Positions 4,520-56,350 of a DNA stretch of 64,000 bases are shown in pieces; the stretch's first letter is position 1, and each line of letters opens with the position of its first letter. Location: NCBI GenBank assembly GCA_933228675.1, contig OW121743.1:81915863-81979862 (forward strand), read 5' to 3'. This stretch comes from Stomorhina lunata (lineage: Eukaryota > Arthropoda > Insecta > Diptera > Rhiniidae). The position numbers were made by a program, and so were the translations under genes. Below the pieces are notes generated by a model. The model made no database searches, was not told the origin of the DNA, and saw nothing but the letters and a program-made list of their open reading frames with translations.

Positions 4520-7500
4520 CTGCTGTTCTGCTCTTTGTGTTTCGTTGTAAATCTGTGAAGGGGTAGTAAGGGCCCGTTGGATTTAAGAAATTTGTATATT
4601 CTAAGAAATTAATAAAGTCAATCAAAATTATATTTTATGCATAATTAGCAGCCCATACCACCAGCAGCCGATGATTTTTTTTTAATTTTCGTATCATTAA
4701 TAAAACGATCATTAATAAAACTCGTGAAAATGAGTATTAAAATCATTTAGTTGGAATTTGGATGTTAACAAAAAAAATAAAGAAAAGAAACAAATCAAAA
4801 TTTAAATTATAGCAACAAAATACATGAGAACAAAGAAATTTAATCTCAAACAAAACAAAGAGAACAAAGAAATTTAATCTCGAACATTGTTGCCTCGACA
4901 CTATTATTTTTGTAAACATTGGGAATATTTTTGTAAATATTGGGAATATTTCAAAACAGAAAAAAATCTAAAAATAATAACAAATAATTTAAAAAATTTT
5001 CTATAAAAAAATTTTTTATAAAAAAATTTTTTATAAAAAAATTTTTTATAAAAAAATTTTTTATAAAAATTTTTCCATAAAAAAATCTTTGATAAAAAGT
5101 TTTCTATAGAAAATTTTTGATAAAAATTTATCCATAGAAAAATTTTTGATAAATAATTTTCAATAGAAAAATTTTTGATAAATAATTTTCAATAGAAAAA
5201 TTTTTAATGAAAAAATTTTCTTCAGAAAATTTTTAGTAAAAAAATTTTCTATAGAAAAATTTTTGATAAAAAATTTTTTATAGAAAAATTTTTGATAAAC
5301 AATTTTCAATAGAAAAATTTTTACTCAAAAAATTTTCTTTAGAAAAATTTTTGATAAAAAATTTTCTTTAAAAGAAAATTTTCTATAGAAACATTTTGAT
5401 AAAAAAAAATTTATATAGAAAAATTTTTGATAACAAAAATATAGAAAAAATTTTGATAAAAAGATTTTCTATAGAAAATTCTTGATAAAAAAAATTTTCT
5501 ATAGAAAAATTTTTGATAAAAAAATTTTCTATAGAAAAATTTTTGATAAAAAAATTTTCTATAGAAAAATTTTTGATAAAAAAATTTACTATAGAAAAAT
5601 TTTTGATAAAAAAATTTTCTATAGAAAAATTTTTGATAAAAAAATTTTCTATAGAAAAATTTTTGATAAAAAAATTTTCTATAGAAAAATTTTTGATAAA
5701 AAAATTTTCTATAGAAATATTGTTGATAAAAAAATTTTCTATATAAAATTTTTCTATAAATTTTCTATAGAAAAATTTTTATAGAAAAATTTTTATAGAA
5801 AAATTTTTGATAAAAAAACTTTCCATAGAAAAATTTTTGATAATAAAATTTTCTAAAGAAAATTTTTTGACAAAAAATGTCTATAAATCTATAAATTTTC
5901 TATAGAAAAATTTTTGATAAAAAAAACTCTTATATATGGTTCGAGAGAACAAAGAAATTTAATCTCGAACATTGTTGCCACGACACTATTATTTTTGTAA
6001 AGATTGGGAATATTTTTGTAGATATTGGGAATATTTAAAAACAGAAAAAAAATCTAAAAATAATAACAAATAATTTAAAAAATTTTCTATAAAAAAATTT
6101 TCATAGATAAATTTTTTATAAAAAAATTTTTTATAAAAAAATTTTTTATAAAAAATTTTTCCATAGAAAAATCTTTGATAAAAAGTTTTCTATAGAAAAA
6201 TTTTGCATAGAAAATTTTTGATAAAAATTTATCCATAGAAAAATTTTTGATAAATAATTTTCAATAGAAAAATTTTTGATAAATAATTTTCAATAGAAAA
6301 ATTTTTAATGAAAAAATTTTCTTCAGAAAATTTTTAGTAAAAAAATTTTCTATAGAAAAATTTTTGATAAAAATGTTTCCATAGAAAAATTTTTGATAAA
6401 AAATTTTTTATAGAAAAATTTTTGATAAACAATTTTCAATAGAAAAATTTTTACCCAAAAAATTTTCTTTAGAAAAATTTTTGATAAAAAATTTTCTTTA
6501 AAAGAAAATTCTCTATAGAAAAATTTTGATAAAAAAAATTTTATATAGAAAAATTTTTGATAACAAAAATATAGAAAAATTTTTGATAACAAAAATATAG
6601 AAAAATTTTTGATAAAAAGATTTTCTATAGAAAATTCTTGACGAAAAAAAATTTCTAAAGAAAAATTTTTGATAAAAAAATTTTCTATAGAAAAATTTTT
6701 GATAAAAAATTTTCTATACAAAAATTTTTGAAAAAAAAATTTCCTATAGAAAAATTTTTGATAAAAAAATTTTCTATAGAAAAATTTTTGATAAAAAAAT
6801 TTTCTATAGAAAAATTTTTGATAAAAAAATTTTCTATATAAAATTTTTCTATAAATTTTCTATAGAAAAATTTTTGATAAAAAAACTTTCCATAGAAAAA
6901 TTTTTTATAATAAAATTTTCTAAAGAAAATTTTTTGATAAAAAAATGTCTATAAATCTATAAATTTTCTATAGAAAAATTTTTATAGAAAAATTTTTGAT
7001 AAAAAAACTTTCCATAGAAAAATTTTTGATAATAAAATTTTGTAAAGAAAATTTTTTGATAAAAAAAATGTTCTATAGAATAATGTATAATAAAAAAATT
7101 TTCTATAAATAATTTTCTATAGAAAAATTTTTAAAAAAAATTTTCTATAGAAAAATTTTTGATAAAAAAAATTTTCTATAGAAAAATTTCTGACAAAAAC
7201 ATTTTCTATAGAAAAATTTTTGATAAAAAAAAATTTTCTATAGAAAAATTTTTAATAAAAAAATTTTTTATAGAAAAAGTTTTGATATAAAAATTTTTTA
7301 TAGAAAAATTTTTGAGAAAAAAACATTTTCTATAGAAAAATTCTTGATAAAAAATTTTCTATAGAAAAATTTTTTATAAAAAAAATTTCTATAGAAAAAT
7401 TTTTTATAAAAAAAATTTCTATAGAAAAATTTTTGATAAAAAAATTTTCTATAGAAAAATTTCTGATAAAAACATTTTCTATAGAAAAGTTTTTGATAAA

Positions 7501-7585
7501 AAAAAATTTCATAGAAAAATTTTGGATGAAAAAATTTTCTAAAGAAAAATTTTTGTTAAAAAAAAATACCTATGGAAACATTTTT
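4520..7585. repeat. Segmental duplication, unit 1 (3.07 kb)
   Basis: Starts with CTGCTGTTCTGCTCTTTGTG and ends after TACCTATGGAAACATTTTT. The same sequence restarts at 7586, so this is a head-to-tail duplication. Inside it, 4860-5935 and 5944 onward are themselves two related sub-blocks, each led by GAACAAAGAAATTTAATCTC and followed by a 30-bp minisatellite. This gives a layered repeat structure. Confidence 0.85.
4985..7580. repeat. 30-bp AT minisatellite (unit 1 of duplication)
   Basis: The monomer is AAAATTTTCTATAGAAAAAT plus TTTTGATAAA. The best-preserved stretch (5485-5710) is nearly perfect with exactly two units per 60 bases. Because 30 is divisible by three and the unit lacks stops in some frames, it yields spurious open frames encoding FSIEKFLIKK-type repeats on both strands; these are not genes. 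Confidence 0.95.
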
Positions 7586-9804
7586 CTGCTGTTCTGCTCT
7601 TTGTGTTTCGTTGTAAATCTGTGAAGGGGTAGTAAGGGCCCGTTGGATTTAAGAAATTTGTATATTCTAAGAAATTAATAAAGTCAATCAAAATTATATT
7701 TTATGCATAATTAGCAGCCCATACCACCAGCAGCCGATGATTTTTTTTTTAATTTTCGTATCATTAATAAAACGATCATTAATAAAACTCGTGAAAATGA
7801 GTATTAAAATCATTTAGTTGGAATTTGGATGTTAACAAAAAAAATAAAGAAAAGAAACAAATCAAAATCTAAATTATAGCAACAAAATACATGAGAACAA
7901 AGAAATTTAATCTCAAACAAAACAAAGAGAACAAAGAAATTTAATCTCGAACATTGTTGCCTCGACACTATTATTTTTGTAAACATTGGGAATATTTTTG
8001 TAAATATTGGGAATATTTCAAAACAGAAAAAAAATCTAAAAATAATAACAAATAATTTAAAAAATTTTCTATAAAAAAATTTTTTATAAAAAAATTTTTT
8101 ATAAAAAAATTTTTTATAAAAAAATTTTTTATAAAAAAATTTTTTATAAAAAAATTTTTTATAAAAAAATTTTTTATAAAAATTTTTCCATAAAAAAATC
8201 TTTGATAAAAAGTTTTCTATAGAAAATTTTTGATAAAAATTTATCCATAGAAAAATTTTTGATAAATAATTTTCAATAGAAAAATTTTTGATAAATAATT
8301 TTCAATAGAAAAATTTTTAATGAAAAAATTTTCTTCAGAAAATTTTTAGTAAAAAAATTTTCTATAGAAAAATTTTTGATAAAAAATTTTTTATAGAAAA
8401 ATTTTTGATAAACAATTTTCAATAGAAAAATTTTTGATAAACAATTTTCAATAGAAAAATTTTTACTCAAAAAATTTTCTTTAGAAAAATTTTTGATAAA
8501 AAATTTTCTTTAAAAGAAAATTTTCTATAGAAACATTTTGATAAAAAAAAATTTATATAGAAAAATTTTTCATAACAAAAATATAGAAAAAATTTTGATA
8601 AAAAGATTTTCTATAGAAAATTCTTGATAAAAAAAATTTTCTATAGAAAAATTTTTGATAAAAAAATTTTCTATAGAAAAATTTTTGATAAAAAAATTTT
8701 CTATAGAAAAATTTTTGATAAAAAAATTTACTATAGAAAAATTTTTGATAAAAAAATTTTCTATAGAAAAATTTTTGATAAAAAAATTTTCTATAGAAAA
8801 ATTTTTGATAAAAAAATTTTCTATAGAAAAATTTTTGATAAAAAAATTTTCTATAGAAATATTGTTGATAAAAAAATTTTCTATATAAAATTTTTCTATA
8901 AATTTTCTATAGAAAAATTTTTATAGAAAAATTTTTATAGAAAAATTTTTGATAAAAAAACTTTCCATAGAAAAATTTTTGATAATAAAATTTTCTAAAG
9001 AAAATTTTTTGACAAAAAATGTCTATAAATCTATAAATTTTCTATAGAAAAATTTTTGATAAAAAAAAAACTCTTATATATGGTTCGAGAGAACAAAGAA
9101 ATTTAATCTCGAACATTGTTGCCACGACACTATTATTTTTGTAAAGATTGGGAATATTTTTGTAGATATTGGGAATATTTAAAAACAGAAAAAAAATCTA
9201 AAAATAATAACAAATAATTTAAAAAATTTTCTATAAAAAAATTTTCATAGATAAATTTTTTATAAAAAAATTTTTTATAAAAAAATTTTTTATAAAAAAT
9301 TTTTCCATAGAAAAATCTTTGATAAAAAGTTTTCTATAGAAAAATTTTGCATAGAAAATTTTTGATAAAAATTTATCCATAGAAAAATTTTTGATAAATA
9401 ATTTTCAATAGAAAAATTTTTGATAAATAATTTTCAATAGAAAAATTTTTAATGAAAAAATTTTCTTCAGAAAATTTTTAGTAAAAAAATTTTCTATAGA
9501 AAAATTTTTGATAAAAATGTTTCCATAGAAAAATTTTTGATAAAAAATTTTTTATAGAAAAATTTTTGATAAACAATTTTCAATAGAAAAATTTTTACCC
9601 AAAAAATTTTCTTTAGAAAAATTTTTGATAAAAAATTTTCTTTAAAAGAAAATTCTCTATAGAAAAATTTTGATAAAAAAAATTTTATATAGAAAAATTT
9701 TTGATAACAAAAATATAGAAAAATTTTTGATAAAAAGATTTTCTATAGAAAATTCTTGACGAAAAAAAATTTCTAAAGAAAAATTTTTGATAAAAAAATT
9801 TTCT

Positions 9805-10483
9805 GATGGTCGTGGGTTCGAGTCGGGCTCAGGTTCATATCATAAATTATTTTTTTAATTTATGATTTTTAAATTAGATGAATAAATTTTAGGAATACTG
9901 AAAAAACTATGTGACACTTAGCAGTGTGGAATGCTGCATTTTCTGTCCCGCTACGGACTTCATCAGCACACTGTGTCACCAACTGTTAGATGCCAGTAGT
10001 TAAGATCATCTATTTAACTGAATTCTTAAGCGAAATTGAAAACGAGAATTATATTAACACTCATTTCTATTTCACCTATGACCATATGATCGATTCAGTT
10101 AGACGAACTTATCCACCATAGTTTTTTCCTTTATGTTTTGTATTCCTATCCTTTATTAATCTACATTTACTTTGTACTTTAACCAACTATCAGCTGGTAA
10201 TGAAGACAAAGATTTTTGTTTTGACAAGTTTCTGTTTATTCTTTTACGTTAATGCAAATTTGAATTTAGTATCAACTTGAAAGAGTTAATGAAAACATGT
10301 AAATCGCGGTGCCCATGCAATTTAATTGAAAGAAATTAATTTTAGTTGAACCAGAATTTATGTTGATGGTCGTGGGTTCGAGTCGGGCTCAGGTTCATAT
10401 CATAAATTATTTTTTTAATTTATGATTTTTAAAACCCACGACCATCAACATAAATTCTGGTTCAACTAAAATTAATTTCTTTC
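9805..10483 (-). mobile_element. Hammerhead-bearing Penelope/retrozyme-like insertion
   Basis: The unoccupied site is visible in duplication unit 1 near 6680. The insertion is flanked by a 12-bp duplication AAAAAATTTTCT (9793-9804 and 10484-10495). A segment of about 70 bp, starting GATGGTCGTGGGTTCGAGTC, lies directly repeated at 9805-9874 and 10363-10432 (558-bp period). An inverted copy of 10331-10380 follows at 10434-10483. Direct terminal repeats with an inverted extension, a variable-length target duplication and a hammerhead motif fit the known architecture of non-autonomous Penelope-like elements or retrozymes. No protein is encoded. The class assignment is inference. Confidence 0.7.
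9911..9979 (-). ncRNA. Hammerhead ribozyme motif, type I
   Basis: Read on the minus strand. Stem I outer strand GTGACA (9979-9974) pairs with TGTCAC (9916-9911). Stem I inner strand CAGTGTG (9973-9967) pairs with CACACTG (9928-9922), and CTAAG (9921-9917) forms an internal bulge. Core CTGATGA is 9966-9960. Stem II is GTCC (9958-9955) with GGAC (9948-9945). Core GAAA is 9943-9940. Stem III is ATG/CAT (9939-9931). The UH position is TC (9930-9929), so cleavage is predicted 3' of C9929. All invariant core bases of the hammerhead consensus are present. Activity is inferred, not shown. Confidence 0.8.
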
Positions 10484-11394
10484 AAAAAATTTTCTATAGA
10501 AAAATTTTTGATAAAAAATTTTCTATACAAAAATTTTTGAAAAAAAAATTTCCTATAGAAAAATTTTTGATAAAAAAATTTTCTATAGAAAAATTTTTGA
10601 TAAAAAAATTTTCTATAGAAAAATTTTTGATAAAAAAATTTTCTATATAAAATTTTTCTATAAATTTTCTATAGAAAAATTTTTGATAAAAAAACTTTCC
10701 ATAGAAAAATTTTTGATAATAAAATTTTCTAAAGAAAATTTTTTGATAAAAAAATGTCTATAAATCTATAAATTTTCTATAGAAAAATTTTTATAGAAAA
10801 ACTTTTGATAAAAAAACTTTCCATAGAAAAATTTTTGATAATAAAATTTTGTAAAGAAAATTTTTTGATAAAAAAAATGTTCTATAGAATAATGTATAAT
10901 AAAAAAATTTTCTATAAATAATTTTCTATAGAAAAATTTTTATAAAAAAATTTTCTATAGAAAAATTTTTGATAAAAAAAATTTTCTATAGAAAAATTTC
11001 TGACAAAAACATTTTCTATAGAAAAATTTTTGATAAAAAAAAATTTTCTATAGAAAAATTTTTAATAAAAAAATTTTTTATAGAAAAAGTTTTGATATAA
11101 AAATTTTTTATAGAAAAATTTTTGAGAAAAAAACATTTTCTATAGAAAAATTCTTGATAAAAAATTTTCTATAGAAAAATTTTTTATAAAAAAAATTTCT
11201 ATAGAAAAATTTTTTATAAAAAAAATTTCTATAGAAAAATTTTTGATAAAAAAATTTTCTATAGAAAAATTTCTGATAAAAACATTTTCTATAGAAAAGT
11301 TTTTGATAAAAAAAAATTTCATAGAAAAATTTTGGATGAAAAAATTTTCTAAAGAAAAATTTTTGTTAAAAAAAAATACCTATGGAAACATTTT

Positions 11395-12068
11395 TGATAA
11401 AAAATTTTCCATAAAAAGAACAAATAAACTAATTTGCTATAATAAAAATAACTTTCTTATAGAAAAATTGTTGATAAAAATATTAAAAAAAAATGCAGTA
11501 GAAAACTTTTTAAAACTTTCGAACTACACAATGAAAAAAATACCTATTTTAGTTAAGTCTATAAAAAAGCAGCAACTCTGCCGACTATTTTTTTGTTCTG
11601 TTCTCTTTACGCCGACCCATGCTCTTGAGGCTGAAGATCATAGAAGTATTTAACTTTTGGGAGAACGACAACTCCAGGCTACAACTATAGCTACAACTAT
11701 AGCAGCTACAACTATAGCTGCGGGGACTATAAATAAAACCAATTTACTACCAATTGCTTCAATAGAACGTCGGCTTGCTCAGAGTTCATGAGACCGAAGA
11801 TCATAGAAATATGGGACTATCAAAAGGACAACAGCTCAATATCACCAAAAATAGAAACAAATTTACGACGTATTTTTGAGAGTCAACCGCATACTGCCTT
11901 GAGAACTTGAGAAATGAAACAACTATTCGATGTATTAGACAAAATCAAAGTTGTGGTTGCATGAATAAATGTGGAAAACCAAGAAAAAACTCTAGGGGAC
12001 AACAAGCTAGTATTATAATAAAGTTATATCTTAATAAAAGTCTTTTGATTCCGTTTAAAATGAAAGTT
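11395..12068. other. Unclassified sequence with short CTACAACTATAG repeats
   Basis: Contains tandem CTACAACTATAG units (about 11679-11722) and two diverged copies of a segment with GAAGATCATAGAA (near 11630 and 11795). No convincing gene; the short frame at 11907-12104 runs into the next repeat. Confidence 0.4.
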
Positions 12069-13422: not shown

Positions 13423-14704
13423 AAGAGTGTTCTAAAAAAAATATGCATTTATTATTTTAGACAAAATTTATCCATAGTGCAAGAAATAATTTATTTTTTG
13501 ATCTAGTTAGTTTCTATAGATATGTCAGATACTATTATTTTAGAAATTATTTATTTTCAATAGTTATTTCAATCAAAATGGACTGCGAAAAAAAAGTTCG
13601 TGAAAATATAATTAAAACTTTTCAAAAAAATCCGTCATGGACTTTTAAAAAAATAGCTAAAAATTTGAAAGTTAACCCTCGAACGGTTTCTAATGCCATC
13701 AGATGGTATAAGGAAAACCTGAGCATTGAAAGAAAACCTGGATCAGGGAGGAAAAAAGGTCCTACAGATATTGGTAAGGCAAAAGAAGTCGAGCGACTCT
13801 TTCGAAGAGCGCCTAACACTTCTTTAAGAAAAGCAGCTCGTACGGTGAAATGTTCTACGAATTTTGCACATAGAGTCAAAGCTTATGCTGGACTGAAGAC
13901 ATACAAAGTCCAAAAGGTTCCAGATCACATAGAAGCAAAAAAACGAGCGAAAAAATTGAAGTCTGATTTTATAAAAAAATACACCTGTTGTGTGATGGAT
14001 GATGAAACATACGTACTGGCAGACTTTTCTCAACTTCCTGGTCAAGATTTTTATGTTGCTGATAAACGGGGCAATGTTCGGCAAAAGTTTCGCACAAAAA
14101 AACAAACAAATTTCCCTAAGAAGTTTCTCGTGTGGGAAGCTATTTGCAGTTGTGGCAAAAGAAGTAAAGTATTTGTGGCATCTGGCACAATAAACACAGA
14201 AATGTATATAAAGGAGTTCCTACAAAAACGGTTGTTACCCTTTTTAAGAGAGCACAGAGTGACTACATTTTTTTGGCCCGATTTGGCATCATGCCAATAT
14301 GGAAAAATGGCACTTGAGTGGTACTCAAAGAATAATGTCATTTTTGTACCACGAGAGGCAAATCCACCTAACTGTCCAGAACTTCGGCCTGTGGAAAGGT
14401 ATTGGGCTCCGGTAAAAAAGGAATTGAAGAACACAGGAAAGATTTCCAAGAACATGTCCGATTTTAAGCGCAGGTGGAACACATGCTCCAAAAAGGTATC
14501 AGAAGCAACTGTAAAATCTTTAATGGGAGGGTTTCCGAAAAAAGTCGATAATTTTGCAAAACCCGAGTACTAAGTAAACATTTTAATGCTAAATGATTTT
14601 GTAAAATATGTCATTATATTTGCGTATTTTGTAGAGTTTTTATATTAAAAGGTTTGATTTTTATTTAAGAAAATCCAACTACAAATTTTATTTAGAGCAC
14701 TCTT
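13423..14704 (+). mobile_element. Complete Tc1/mariner element, DD37E type
   Basis: 1282 bp. Left end AAGAGTGTTCTAAA and right end inverted AAGAGTGCTCTAAA (13 of 14 identical), flanked by TA at 13421-13422 and 14705-14706. The uninterrupted target CAGAGTACTTGCC is present in the same host repeat at 31467 and, inverted, near 37613, which proves the ends. It contains one intact transposase frame. Everything needed for autonomy is visible; activity is unknown. Confidence 0.93.
13578..14573 (+). CDS. Tc1/mariner-family transposase (DD37E), intact
   Basis: The 331-residue product should bind the element's inverted repeats and cut and paste it into TA sites. Residues 5-45 and 62-110 look like the two helix-turn-helix units of a paired-like DNA-binding region. 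They are joined by a basic GRPR-like linker (KPGSGRKKGP, 53-62). The catalytic triad is D142 (in VMDDETYV), D235 (in FFWPDLAS) and E273 (in LRPVERYW). The 92 residues between the aspartates and 37 between D235 and E273 give DD37E. Length is typical for the family. The start has a good context (AAAATGG) and lies 155 bp inside the left end. There is no frameshift or internal stop. It sits inside a non-autonomous repeat, not in a host operon or gene. Confidence 0.93.
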   Translation: MDCEKKVRENIIKTFQKNPSWTFKKIAKNLKVNPRTVSNAIRWYKENLSIERKPGSGRKKGPTDIGKAKEVERLFRRAPNTSLRKAARTVKCSTNFAHRVKAYAGLKTYKVQKVPDHIEAKKRAKKLKSDFIKKYTCCVMDDETYVLADFSQLPGQDFYVADKRGNVRQKFRTKKQTNFPKKFLVWEAICSCGKRSKVFVASGTINTEMYIKEFLQKRLLPFLREHRVTTFFWPDLASCQYGKMALEWYSKNNVIFVPREANPPNCPELRPVERYWAPVKKELKNTGKISKNMSDFKRRWNTCSKKVSEATVKSLMGGFPKKVDNFAKPEY

Positions 14705-15969: not shown

Positions 15970-16442
15970 CCGATTTTTCTATAGAAAATTTTTTTATCAA
16001 AAATTATTTTTATTAAAAGTTTTTTCATAGAAAATTTTTTTATCAAAAATGTTTCTATAGAAAATTTTTTTTATCAGAAATTTTTCTATAGAAAATTTTT
16101 TTATCAAAAATTTTTCTATAGAATATATTTTTATTAAAAATTTTTCTAAAGAAAATTTTCTTACAAAAAATTTTTCTATAGAATTTTGTTTTGTCAAAAT
16201 CGAAAATTTTTTTATCAATAATTTTTCTATGAAAAATTTTTTATCAAAACTTTTTAATTGAAAAAGCCTTTATAGGTTAGCTAAAGCATCGATTTCCTAT
16301 AGAGAATTTGTTAATCAAAAATTTTTCTATAGAAAATATTTTTTTATCAGAAATTTTTCTATTGAAAATTTGTTAATCAAAAATTTTTCTATAGAAAATA
16401 TTTTTATCAAAAAATAACAAAATAGTCGGGATGTAAATATTA

Positions 16443-16940
16443 TTCAAAAAGAAGTGTATTTGCATTTGATCCCAAATCTGTTACATTTATTTATTAATGT
16501 AACAGACCAATTTATTGATAAAAAGCCAAAAAATGTTTGCGGAGAAACCAAAAATTCGATGGTTGGTTAAGCCATCTCTTCAGGAGGATTATCCCCAATT
16601 TAGACAGTTCGAAAACCTCGCATTATTACTAAATTTACAAACATAACTATTAAGAATTATGTTCATAACCCAAAAGTCGATAATCTACGCTTTTACTTTT
16701 GGTTTATGAACATAATTCTTAATAGTTATGTTTGTAAATTTAGTAATAATGCGAGGTTTTCGATCTGTCTAAATTGGGGATAATCCTCCTGAAGAGATGG
16801 CTTGACCAACCATCGAAACGCGTCGAGGAATTTGGTTTCTCCGCAAACATTTTTTGGCTTTTTATCAATAAATTGGTCTGTTACATTAATAAATAAATGT
16901 AACAGATTTGGGATCAAATGCAAATACACTTTTTTTTGAA
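16443..16940. repeat. Large foldback repeat (arms about 240 bp)
   Basis: Left arm 16443-16677, spacer 16678-16694, right arm 16695-16940. The arms pair almost throughout; the left arm lacks about 15 bp that the right arm retains, which removes part of the hammerhead core. A related copy lies at 60571-60945, and a short fragment at about 32450-32540. Each arm also has an internal palindrome, CTGTTACATT against AATGTAACAG. No coding potential. Confidence 0.9.
16784..16829 (+). ncRNA. Minimal hammerhead ribozyme motif in foldback arm
   Basis: Stem I is TCCTC (16784-16788) with GAGGA (16825-16829). Core CTGAAGA (16789-16795) fits the CUGANGA consensus. Stem II is GATGG (16796-16800) with CCATC (16810-16814) around a 9-nt loop. 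Core GAAA is 16815-16818. Stem III is a very short C-GC-G (16819-16822). The UH position is TC (16823-16824). Very short stem III is a known feature of hammerheads in Penelope-like elements. The mirror copy in the left arm has lost the 3' core. Confidence 0.65.
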
Positions 16941-17515
16941 AAATATTTTTATTAAAAATTTTTTTAAAGAAAATTTTCTTACAAAAAATTTTTCTATAGA
17001 ATTTTGTTTTATCAAAATCGAAAATTTTTTTATCAAACATTTTTTTATGAAAAATTTTTTATCAAAACTTTTTAATTGAAAAATCCTTTACAGGTTAGTT
17101 AATGCATCGATTTCCTATAGAAAATTTGTTAATCAAAAATTTTTCTATAGAAAATATTTTTATTAAAAATTTTTCTAAAGAAAATTTTCTTACAAAAAAT
17201 TTTTCTACAGAATTTTGTTTTGTCAAAATCGAAATTTTTTTTATCAATAATTTTTCTATGAAAAATTTCTTATCAAAACTTTTTAATTGAAAAATCCTTT
17301 ACAGGTTAGTTAATGCATCGATTTCCTATAGAAAATTTGTTAATCAAAAATTTTTCTATAGAAAATATTTTTATTAAAAATTTTTCTGAAGAAAATTTTC
17401 TTACAAAAAATTTTTCTATAGAATTTTGTTTTATCAAAACCGAAAATTTTTTTATCAAAAATTTTTCTATGAAAAATTTCTTATCAAAATTTTTTTTAAT
17501 GAAAAATAGCTAAAG

Positions 17516-25762: not shown

Positions 25763-27189
25763 GCTATCTCGAAAACCGCTCTAACGATTTTGATAAAATT
25801 TGGACAGTGGGTATCTTTTTTGATGTATAGGTTTTTTGATGTACGGGTAAAAAGGGGAAAAAATCGAAAACGCTATGTCTCCTAAAGTAATAGGTATAGA
25901 AAAAAAATTAAAATTACGTTTTAAACAGCTTTGAAAATAAGCGGACAGGTGTTTGGTACTTTTTTGAAACTATGTCCGATAGGGGGTAAAAAAGGGTGAA
26001 AATAGTTTTTTTGGCACCTTTTTAACCCACTCTTATATTTTAAACTAAAGAATATAGAAAGAAACTTGGTACTGCAATCAATAGATGTAAAAAAAAACAT
26101 GAAACACGTATTTGGTACTTTTTTGATTTTGGAGCCAAAATGGGTAAAAAAGGGATAAAATGATAACTTAACATCTCCAAAGTAATATGAATAGGAACAT
26201 TATACATTATGTTAAATGCGTTTTAAAAAAATGTACCGAATTCAATTGGCACCAAAAAAGTACCAAATATACATATGGAACTTAGGGAATAAAAAGGGGG
26301 AAAAATTAGTATTATTTTAAACAAATGAATGTTTGTCTGTATGTATGTTCTTTATAGAATAGTAAACTGTGAATTTGATTGTGTTATGCTCTTTAGCGAA
26401 GATGTTGCGGATAAGCCGGCGAAAGTTTTAAAGTTGATAAGACTAATTTCCGACAGATGGCGCCACTGAAAATTACTAAAAATTAATTAAATCGTAAACT
26501 GTACATTTGATCATGCTATGATCTTTAGCAAAGTTGTAGCGCATGAGCCGACGAAGGCTTTTTAGTTGGTATGAATAATTTCCGACAGGTGGCGCTACAG
26601 AAACTTACTCAAAGTCAATTTAATCGTAATCTGTACATTTAATCATGCTACAATCTTTAGCAAAGTTGTTGCACATGAGCCGACGAAGGTTTCTTAGTTG
26701 GTATGAAGAAATTTCGACAGGTGGCGCTACTGAAATTTACTCAAAGTCAATTTAATCGTATGCTGTACATTTAATGCTATAATCTTCAGCAAAGTTGTTA
26801 CGGATAAGCCGAAGAAGTTTTATGAATTGGAATAAGCAAAGTCCGACAGGTGGCGCCACAGAAAACTACTCAAAATGAATTAAATCGTAAACTGTGCATT
26901 TGATCAGACTATAATCTTTAGCAAAGTTGTTGCGCATGAGTCGACAGAGGTTTCTGTTGATATGAATAATTTCCAAAATTATTCAAAATGAGTTAAACTG
27001 TAAACTATGCAAACTATGTGTTGGTCGGACAAAATAAATCAAATAATTCAAAATTAACTGAATATTTCTACAATGTCTTTCCTCTAAATTTATTTTAGCA
27101 CTTTATAATATAAAATATATAAAAACTTTAAAATTTTCCTCAAAATGCTTATCATAAAGCTCCGAGCAAGGCTCGGTCTACCAGGTACT
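25672..27189 (+). mobile_element. Microsatellite-bearing Helitron-like repeat (copy E2)
   Basis: Same ends as copy E1, with TATCTTATATTC at left, and CCGAGC-AA-GGCTCGG plus TCTACCAGGTACT at right. The (TA)n tract is 25703-25757. Central tandem repeats of about 120 bp, each with GACAGGTGGCGC, are present in about five copies (26340-26970). Inserted inside dispersed repeat D4. Confidence 0.7.
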
Positions 27190-32235: not shown

Positions 32236-32460
32236 ATGTCCCAAAATTCCTGATAAAACTTTTTAATAAATAAACCTTTTAATAAATGTGTGGGAAATAA
32301 AGATATGATAAAACTGAAAAATGTTTGTGTGTTTCTGTTCAGGTGATAATTTTCGCTTTATATAAATATTTTTTGTACGCAATAATAATTCGTATTTATT
32401 CTGTCCCTCTAAATAAGATATAATGTCTGGTTTTCGCTCTGTTTAGAATTACTGATATTC

Positions 32461-32506
32461 CTCCTGATGAGATGGCCTAACCAACCATCGAAACGCGTCG
32501 AGGAAA
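32461..32506 (+). ncRNA. Minimal hammerhead ribozyme motif (fragment copy)
   Basis: Stem I is CCTC (32461-32464) with GAGG (32501-32504). Core CTGATGA is 32465-32471. Stem II is GATGG (32472-32476) with CCATC (32486-32490). Core GAAA is 32491-32494, stem III is C-GC-G (32495-32498) and the UH position is TC (32499-32500). It differs from the 16784 copy at the unconstrained core position 7 (T instead of A) and in the stem II loop, while the pairing is kept. Confidence 0.65.
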
Positions 32507-34411: not shown

Positions 34412-36038
<1,627 letters not shown>

Positions 36039-53918: not shown

Positions 53919-56209
53919 CTAATAACTTTTAGCGTAAGCTGACGAAGTAGCCGAAGCACTGGCAAAAGCTCCTGCTTTACCGTAACCGCCACCACCAGTG
54001 CCGCCACTACATTTACTGCAGCCACCATCATGACCGCCACCACCTCCAGGCGAGCCAGCACCAAATCCTCCAGGACCACCAAAACCAAATGAGCCACTAC
54101 CAGCGCCAGCAAAGCTAGATGCGCCTGCACCGCTGAAGGCTCCGGCTCCTCCTAGACCAGGTATAAATGAGCTTAAGAAATCTTTACCAGGACCAAAGCC
54201 ACCTATGCCGCCGTGATTTCCAGTTTCGCCACTGCCACCAGGGCCACCTGGACCTCCAGATCCTCCGTAACCTTTACCGCCAGTACTACCATGACCGCCA
54301 GAACCTCCATATCCTTTTCCACCACCACCACCAGCTCCTCCACCAGCACCTCCACCAGCACCACCTCCATTACCACCATAGCCTCCAGGTCCTCCTGAAC
54401 TACCAGGTTCACCATAACTACCTTGTCCTCCTTGACCACCTGGTGCACCATAACCTCCCTGTCCAGCACCACCGCCTGCACCACCACCACCGCCGGAACC
54501 ACCATAGCCGCCAGAATCTCCGTGACCACCAGTATCACCATGTCCTCCAGTACCGCCATGTCCACCAGTACCACCATTTCCTCCAGAACCACCATGTCCA
54601 CCATTACCTCCATGTCCGCCAGTACCGCCGTAGCCGCCATTGTCACCATCACTGCCTGAGCTACCAGGACTGCCATGACCACCACCAAAACCTACACCAC
54701 CGCCAGCACCGCCACCTGCTCCTCCACCGCCTCCACCTGCTCCGGCACCACCGTAACCTCCAGGACTTCCGGGAGCTCCTGCATACCCATTAGCACCTCC
54801 TTTCCCACCATAACCACCAGCACCGCCGCCAGCTCCTCCACCAGCACCCGCTCCACCACCACCACCATGACCTCCAGGCCCACCAGGACTACCAGGAGCA
54901 CCCGAATAACCACCAGCACCTCCTTTGCCTCCATAACCTCCAGCACCACCACCGGCACCACCTCCACCACCAGCACCCGCTCCACCACCACCGCCAGCAC
55001 CATGACCTTCATAACCTCCTGGTCCACCAGGACTGCCAGGAGCACCCGGATAACCACCAGAACCTCCTTTGCCTCCATAACCTCCAGCACCACCACCGGC
55101 TCCACCTCCGCCACCAGCGCCTCCTCCTCCACCACCGCCGGCGCCATAACCTCCAGATCCACCAGGACTACCAGGAGCTCCTGGATAACCTCCAGCGCCA
55201 CCTTTACCGCCATAACCACCAGTTCCTGCACCACCTCCTGCTCCACCGCCAGCACCTCCTCCTCCACCACCGCCAGCTCCATAACCCCCAGGTCCACCGG
55301 GACCACTATTATCACCCGGATAACCGCCAGCACCTCCTTTGCCTCCATAGCCACCAGGACCGCCGCCAGCGCCTCCACCAGCACCTGCTCCACCACCACC
55401 ACCACCGCCAGCACCATGACCTCCATAACCACCCGGTCCACCAGGACTACCAGGAGCACCTGGATAACCTCCAGCACCACCTTTACCACCATAACCACCA
55501 GCACCTGCACCACCTCCGGCTCCACCTCCAGCTCCCGCTCCACCGCCACCACCTCCTCCATAACCTCCAGGTCCGCTGGGACCTCCATAATCTTTACCCG
55601 ACGATGGTGGTGGGGGTACATATGTCAAATCAGGCAGAGGAACAGAACCACTACCATGTCCCTTGCCAGGTTTAGCTGGATGATAATCTCCTGGACCACC
55701 ACCTGGATTAACTGCAGGCTGCCAACCTGAATCACCACCTGGATTCTTACCGCCACCACCTCCAGGACCAACAGGCTTGTGGCCTCCTAAGAAGGGATTT
55801 CCTGGCTTACCAGCACCACCTCCACCAAAACCACCACCACCTCCTCCTCCACCGCCGCCTCCAAAGCCACCACCACCTCCGCCACTTAAAAATATTCCAC
55901 TGCCACCACCAGCACTGGCTGCAGCACCATGCAGTTTACCAACTCCATCTAAAATGCCACCCAATAAACCAGAAACTCCTTGTTTTAGGCCATTCAAATT
56001 CACTTCCTTGCGTATTGAAATAACTGCACCATCATGGCCGCCACCTGGTAGAAAAGGATTACCAGCACCACCTCCTCCGCCGCCACCAGCACCACCTCCA
56101 CCGCCTCCACCCCACCCACCAGCAAAACTACCAGCACTTGCTGAGGCTGAACTGCCAGCAAAACCTCCGCTACCGCCTCCACCATAACCGCCATAACCAC
56201 CAGCCAGAG
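53919..56209 (-). CDS. Secreted glycine-rich structural protein, exon 2
   Basis: Exon 2 of the gene whose exon 1 is 56351-56414; together 784 residues plus a TAG stop. An acceptor TTTTCAG precedes the exon, and phase joins G from exon 1 with CT. After a Gly/Ser/Ala start it has a short less repetitive segment (about 75-116, with VISIRKEVNLNGLKQGV). A proline patch (LTYVPPPP, about 217-231) follows. Then several repeats of 50-60 residues built on GYPGAPGSPGGPGGYG, AGGGGGGGAGAGGGAGGGAG and GYGGKGGAGG. The end is GGCSKCSGG and an Ala/Ser tail finishing AYAKSY. Such composition is typical of insect cuticular, silk-like or elastomeric extracellular proteins. The exact role is not recognised. Its GC content stands out from the AT-rich surroundings. 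Confidence 0.88.
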
Positions 56210-56350
56210 CTGAAAATTTAATTAAAATCCATTACACAACTGACGCCAACATTCCATTACGTATTCCAATTCCAATATTTAACAAGAATTTCCTTGTGCC
56301 TTTTCAATCATCACAAATGAAAATGAAAAACACTCTTTACTACTACTCAC

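Follow-up and report, generated by a model that had tools for sequence, protein, structure and literature searches.

A hammerhead-bearing tandem repeat of Stomorhina lunata as a probable non-LTR retrozyme with Penelope-like insertion marks

The window (the whole stretch of DNA that was analysed, 64,000 nucleotides of contig OW121743.1 in assembly GCA_933228675.1 of the fly Stomorhina lunata) contains a type I hammerhead motif on its minus strand. The motif lies within a repeat unit of about 560 bp, referred to here as family 1, which is abundant in the 728-Mb genome assembly. The window's copy is an insert whose left end is start B and whose right end is start A, with AAAAAATTTTCT flanking both sides; A and B denote two places in the unit at which insert ends recur and which are read as starts of cDNA. 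The left end was typed as B by eye, whereas automatic typing gave A via a gapped alignment with the flank. The features used below, including an insert of a second hammerhead family, are as follows.

9804..10484, whole insert: left arm 9804-10433, made of one unit of 560 bp and a further 70 bp, and a short right arm 10434-10484 in inverted orientation
9793..9804, left copy of the duplicated target, AAAAAATTTTCT
10484..10495, right copy of the duplicated target, AAAAAATTTTCT
9804..9873, exact 70-bp direct repeat, first copy; its left edge, which is also that of the insert, is cDNA start B
10364..10433, 70-bp direct repeat, second copy, 560 bp on; start of the next unit
10326..10362, 'tail' of 37 nt that separates the two cDNA starts, A at 10326 and B at 10363
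9839..9866, hairpin rich in A/T and containing a T-tract, between ribozyme motif and start B; tract length varies among units of one arm
9911..9979, minus strand, motif of a type I hammerhead, with cleavage predicted between 9929 and 9928 and a 9959/9944 A.A mismatch at the stem II base
16435..16949, comparison insert of the second hammerhead family; arms 16435-16672 (minus) and 16700-16949 (plus), tail on the left end only

No open reading frame of at least 150 aa was found wholly or partly inside 9804-10433. The family-1 unit is non-coding, lacking the frame with reverse transcriptase plus GIY-YIG endonuclease that marks an autonomous Penelope-like element (PLE), and, judged by its sequence, the element is not itself a PLE. 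A tRNA or SINE reading of the B-box-like GGTTCGAGTC at 9815-9824 was dropped: ARAGORN (bacterial code) reported no tRNA in the window, and the box lies on the strand opposite the ribozyme. Degenerate arrays of a 15-bp A/T unit (AAAAAATTTTCTATA type) occupy 4991-9804 and 10485-11417; they hold the motif of an A-run followed by a T-run that is the insertion site of many such elements, and may be preferred targets or by-products. Elsewhere the window holds a long mariner/Tc1-like transposase frame at 13461-14573 (plus strand; 331 aa from the first Met, best relatives about 70% identical), two copies of a 132-bp-unit array at 26358-26974 and 35204-35823, about 8.8 kb apart, whose sequence suggests a duplicated stretch, and a 770-codon glycine-rich open frame at 53919-56231 (minus strand) with a G+C-rich stretch that contrasts with the A/T-rich window.

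Read on the minus strand from 9979 to 9911, the motif is GTGACA-CAGTGTG-CTGATGA-A-GTCC(GTAGCG)GGAC-A-GAA-AATG(CAG)CATT-C^CACACTG-CTAAG-TGTCAC. It has a two-part stem I with a 5-nt CTAAG bulge, a 4-bp stem II and a stem III of 4 bp with a 3-nt loop if the core-adjacent A-T pair is counted; all core bases lie between the three helices and stem I is open-ended, as in type I hammerheads. The coordinates, core, helices, bulge and cleavage after C9929 given in the original prediction all match the minus-strand sequence. Its description of the hammerhead as complete holds for the core and the type I layout but overlooked the A.A mismatch (9959/9944) between stem II and the core, and its stem III, rightly placed, was put at 3 bp by leaving out the A-T pair. 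Self-cleavage is predicted from the sequence, and the core-adjacent mismatch could weaken it.

The region 9911-9979 is the sole match in the window to a core-plus-helix descriptor that tolerates a mismatch of the A.A type. With equal stem lengths the descriptor matched twice when sequence from a first-order Markov model was scanned (534 Mb, strands counted), giving a chance expectation of about 0.0005 such motifs per window, which bears out the earlier statement that a chance occurrence is very unlikely. A search with the Rfam models, proposed with the original prediction, returned no hammerhead in this region at the gathering threshold (an operational criterion, not a biochemical one), and none at 9911-9979 up to an E-value of 10 when short stretches were scanned. 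This null result is weak evidence, because Rfam missed the second hammerhead family of the window too, although the latter are minimal variants and an imperfect control. The motif sequence was the same in 44 of 47 copies compared by BLAST extraction; since the query contained the motif, this identity is no evidence of selection.

Folding predictions do not favor the hammerhead. For the free 69-mer a plain hairpin (-21.8 kcal/mol) is preferred by 3.1 kcal/mol over the hammerhead fold (-18.7 kcal/mol), and the folding energy is unexceptional (z -1.66). In a folded circle of 560 nt only stem II is predicted, the remaining hammerhead pairs having a probability of at most 0.13 in a model without tertiary contacts or protein. 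Among animal retrozymes, an axolotl element has U.U at the place in stem II where family 1 has A.A, and its monomer is reported to cleave 22% in an hour and its dimer better (PMC7229834); because this U.U retrozyme cleaves, the A.A mismatch may, by analogy, be compatible with activity.

A query of 121 bp around the motif gave 828 first-look candidates, of which 40 were scored; all 40 were full-length with 100% identity, and there were two partial matches besides. The scored matches lie on one contig in both orientations, many of them 561-578 bp apart. In 19 fetched regions and the window, units of about 560 bp are arranged head to tail, at most four per arm; all these loci come from one genome, were chosen with a query containing the motif and, except for the window's, lie on one contig. 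Family 1 is thus a type I hammerhead in short head-to-tail units present in many copies, which is how animal non-LTR retrozymes are recognized.

Most family-1 inserts consist of two arms inverted to each other, with an inner junction of variable position. Their outer ends recur at A (10319-10330 in window coordinates) and B (10353-10363), the consensus positions being 37 nt apart. Both ends could be read in 14 two-arm inserts, the window's among them: 11 pair A with B, one has A at both ends, two have A and another site (in one of them 7 nt from B) and none has B at both ends; when ends were shuffled, the A/B pairing had a P of 0.004. Locus L016, the right end of which is outside the fetched region, was left out of this count, and so were L017 and L018, which were typed as one-armed, although by eye each seems to carry a second arm, very short and of the other type. 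End duplications flank 15 of 20 inserts and measure 10-15 bp (median 13, mostly 12-13 bp and A/T-rich); they exceed the 4 bp used as a criterion for retrozymes, although several are ambiguous in A/T arrays. The targets usually show an A-run followed by a T-run; many are simple A/T arrays, in which duplications are ambiguous, while L009, L013, L014, L017 and L024 lie in more distinctive sequence. Two internal starts of reverse transcription 30-40 nt apart, a tail on one end, inverted arms and an A/T-rich target are together the features of a PLE-type insertion product. The ribozyme (minus) strand is likely to be the template RNA, because the fixed ends lie on its 3' side. The retroelement setting that was originally proposed for the motif is strengthened beyond the motif itself by the copies, inverted arms, unit comparisons and target duplications.

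Units within an insert are nearly identical. In the 336 nt outside the ribozyme, compared over 30 complete units, pairs from the same arm (13) differ on average at 0.15 positions, pairs from opposite arms of one insert (10) at 0.4 and pairs from different loci (409) at 6.1; three pairs from L015 were left out, as this locus holds two inserts. The first stretch of both arms in 10 inserts showed 12 differences in 3357 nt, whereas randomly re-paired arms differ at 1.1% and none of 20000 shuffles was as low as the real pairs. Five of the 10 inserts have no difference between the arms and the other five have 2 or 3, so that copying of both arms from one molecule is supported on average only, and the two arms need not share a single source. 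A monomer stage is favored, because units of one array would diverge if multimers were inherited and yet they stay near-identical; passage of each insertion through a one-unit RNA, for example a circle made by the ribozyme, would explain these data best and fits the monomer-length RNA, linear and circular, that is expected of a retrozyme. Local homogenisation after insertion may also produce near-identity, but should have evened out the T-tracts as well. The T-tract length differs among units of one arm (e.g., in L011 and L014), as expected if reverse transcriptase slips on each pass; its use as a test of circle against multimer was dropped, both templates being able to yield such variation, which leaves the one-unit bottleneck as the sole argument for a monomer stage.

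The second hammerhead family is represented in the window by 16435-16949 and a copy at 60.6 kb, with a related copy at 32.4 kb. Further minimal, PLE-like hammerhead motifs, missed by Rfam and by the original prediction, were seen at 16784-16829 (plus), 32460-32503 (plus) and 60756-60711 (minus), and a fourth copy near 16583-16550 (minus) has lost the GAAA...GTC part. The units are about 460-473 bp long, the inverted arms are arranged tail-out as in family 1, and the A-B distance comes to 37-39 nt, according to which end is taken. In 10 of 12 counted two-arm inserts one end has the tail and the other lacks it (P 0.002); inclusion of L053 (start B plus an internal site), which was uncounted, would give 10 of 13. 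Nine of 20 regions were uncounted, L036 being complex and duplicated and L048-L052, L054 and L055 one-armed or cut. The clear duplications, those of L041, L045, L046, L047 and the insert in the window, measure 12-13 bp. In the tail of L042, at the left end (about 390-420), a stretch of about 10 nt seemingly lies in reversed orientation.

Autonomous PLEs are present in the same genome. The Pfam GIY-YIG model gave two sites over the cut-off, assigned by eye to an SLX1-like host gene and to a PLE endonuclease, and the latter site then served as a genome query. It yielded 206 candidates, of which 150 were scored and matched, 11 of the 150 in open frames of 830-864 aa. Twenty PLE loci included four pairs of inverted 3' ends, each with one tailed and one untailed end (by eye); target duplications measure 12-15 bp, and one lies 4 nt away from the end. 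In the PLE at L079 the order is hammerhead, B, A, all upstream of the next frame. The A-B distance is 30-42 nt in three PLE lineages, and the predicted cut lies 62-77 nt from B in these lineages, 126 nt in family 1 and 113-116 nt in family 2. A closing stem around start B can be drawn for family 1 (UGAACC/GGUUCA), family 2 (GGGAU/AUCCC) and the PLEs (GACCU/AGGUC); its occurrence in both families and the PLEs is suggestive, and of three PLE lineages at most one has this pairing in its best predicted fold. In two PLE lineages the CTGANGA core is followed by an additional base, which is T in L079 and A in L080; in L080 this stretch reads CTGATGAAGT, as it does in the family-1 motif. In L071-L078 (PLE lineage 2) a hammerhead after the endonuclease frame has the core TTGAAAA instead of CTGANGA, U3 and A8 replacing C3 and G8 at two positions that pair, possibly a natural compensatory change in young PLE copies.

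Family 1 resembles three kinds of published element, each in part. Animal retrozymes are described as tandem, non-LTR elements with type I hammerheads and circular RNAs (PMC7229834), and share with family 1 the hammerhead type, the short tandem non-coding units, duplications of more than 4 bp and PLEs in the same genome. They differ in that their RNAs measure about 170-400 nt, against a family-1 unit of about 560 bp, and in that circular RNAs are known from them, whereas the present data are DNA only; the available text of PMC7229834 does not mention inverted arms with one tailed end. The Penelope elements of Adineta (PMC3846280) and PAc/Poseidon of Anolis (PMC11167929) are like family 1 in that their arms are inverted, one end may bear a tail of 30-40 bp and the targets are A/T-rich, and PLEs also have a hammerhead upstream of two start sites of reverse transcription (PMC3846280, PMC11167929). 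Penelope inserts are reported with pseudo-LTRs in inverted orientation, one of which may carry a 31-bp tail, and the Adineta examples have duplications of 8-10 bp (PMC3846280), compared with 12-13 bp in family 1, which in this respect is like the PLEs of its own genome. Unlike the PLEs so described, family 1 has no reverse transcriptase/endonuclease gene and its hammerhead has a full stem III. The retrozymes of plants are likewise non-autonomous hammerhead retroelements thought to use circular RNA, but have LTRs and type III hammerheads (PMC4918200), neither of which is found in family 1. The PLE protein is reported to extend both strands from two internal sites matching the genomic tail (PMC11167929), and the two-site 'tail' has been called unique to PLEs in a published study. 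Because the same signature occurs in the PLEs of this genome and in print, the family-1 inserts resemble products of PLE machinery.

The insert is probably a copy of a young, high-copy animal non-LTR retrozyme mobilised by PLE machinery via a ribozyme and circle cycle. The unit, arms, start sites, duplications, one-unit bottleneck and PLE signature are read from sequence, and from them we infer cleavage, circularisation and a PLE protein acting in trans, the last by way of the common insertion marks. In the proposed cycle the minus strand of the element would be transcribed, the type I hammerhead would cut the RNA to monomers of about 560 nt and a host ligase would close these into circles. 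The PLE protein would bind the RNA and cleave the two strands of an A/T-rich target at positions about 12-13 bp from each other, and both 3' ends of the target DNA would prime at the two internal RNA sites A and B, which are separated by 37 nt. Each reverse transcriptase would circle the RNA one or more times, giving head-to-tail units, and the two cDNA arms, once joined, would be inverted to each other, with a tail at one end of the insert and none at the other. Counted against this explanation are the stem II mismatch, the missing Rfam hit, a predicted best fold other than the hammerhead, the arm differences in five of 10 inserts and the three of 14 two-arm inserts that are not A/B.

The same element might be moved by the same machinery with a dead or dispensable ribozyme, the template being uncut multimeric transcripts of tandem copies and the hammerhead a remnant or a protein-bound fold. 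The stem II mismatch, the unfavorable predicted fold, the lack of any insert end at the predicted cut site among the inserts typed, and the report that hammerhead mutants of a lizard PLE had no effect on insertion in vitro (PMC11167929) speak for this; the axolotl U.U retrozyme, which cleaves as described above (PMC7229834), speaks against it, and so does the pattern of near-identical units within inserts that differ from one another, where multimer templates would let units drift. We regard this alternative as unlikely.

Movement by a LINE, with the inverted arms as twin-priming products, is very improbable. Twin priming leaves one RNA 3' end per insert, but here each outer end is a start of cDNA, usually A at one end and B at the other, which is precisely the pattern of this genome's PLEs; the end duplications are nevertheless compatible with target-primed copying, and LINEs are the other named suspect for animal retrozymes (PMC7229834). 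A satellite or foldback DNA repeat that resembles a hammerhead by chance would account for tandem units, inverted arms and the plain hairpin of the predicted fold, yet with about 0.0005 such motifs expected per window, and with inner junctions that vary, alternative sites for the outer ends and slippage in the T-tract as marks of reverse transcription, this origin is scarcely credible.

Two papers leave open which enzyme moves animal retrozymes (PMC7229834, PMC7761336); PLEs or LINEs have been suggested (PMC7229834), and suspicion has fallen on PLEs because they share hammerheads and tandem copies with retrozymes and occur together with them (PMC7229834, PMC7761336). In the titles and abstracts returned by searches of one open-licence library we saw no report tying retrozyme insertion junctions to the PLE signature. 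Here, that signature is carried by the insertion junctions themselves, and PLE frames of 830-864 aa occur in the same genome; the marks point to Penelope enzymes as the copying machinery, and the near-identity of units in each insert would be a DNA record of copying from a single-unit RNA. We lean slightly towards a broader reading, that animal retrozymes are RNA parasites of PLEs which imitate the PLE layout (a hammerhead, B in a closed loop and A about 37 nt on) and that a PLE dimer, working from the two ends of a double-strand cut, copies the circle. If this is true, each insert records two reverse transcriptases circling one RNA. The question of what moves retrozymes could now be answered with purified PLE protein and an RNA of about 560 nt.
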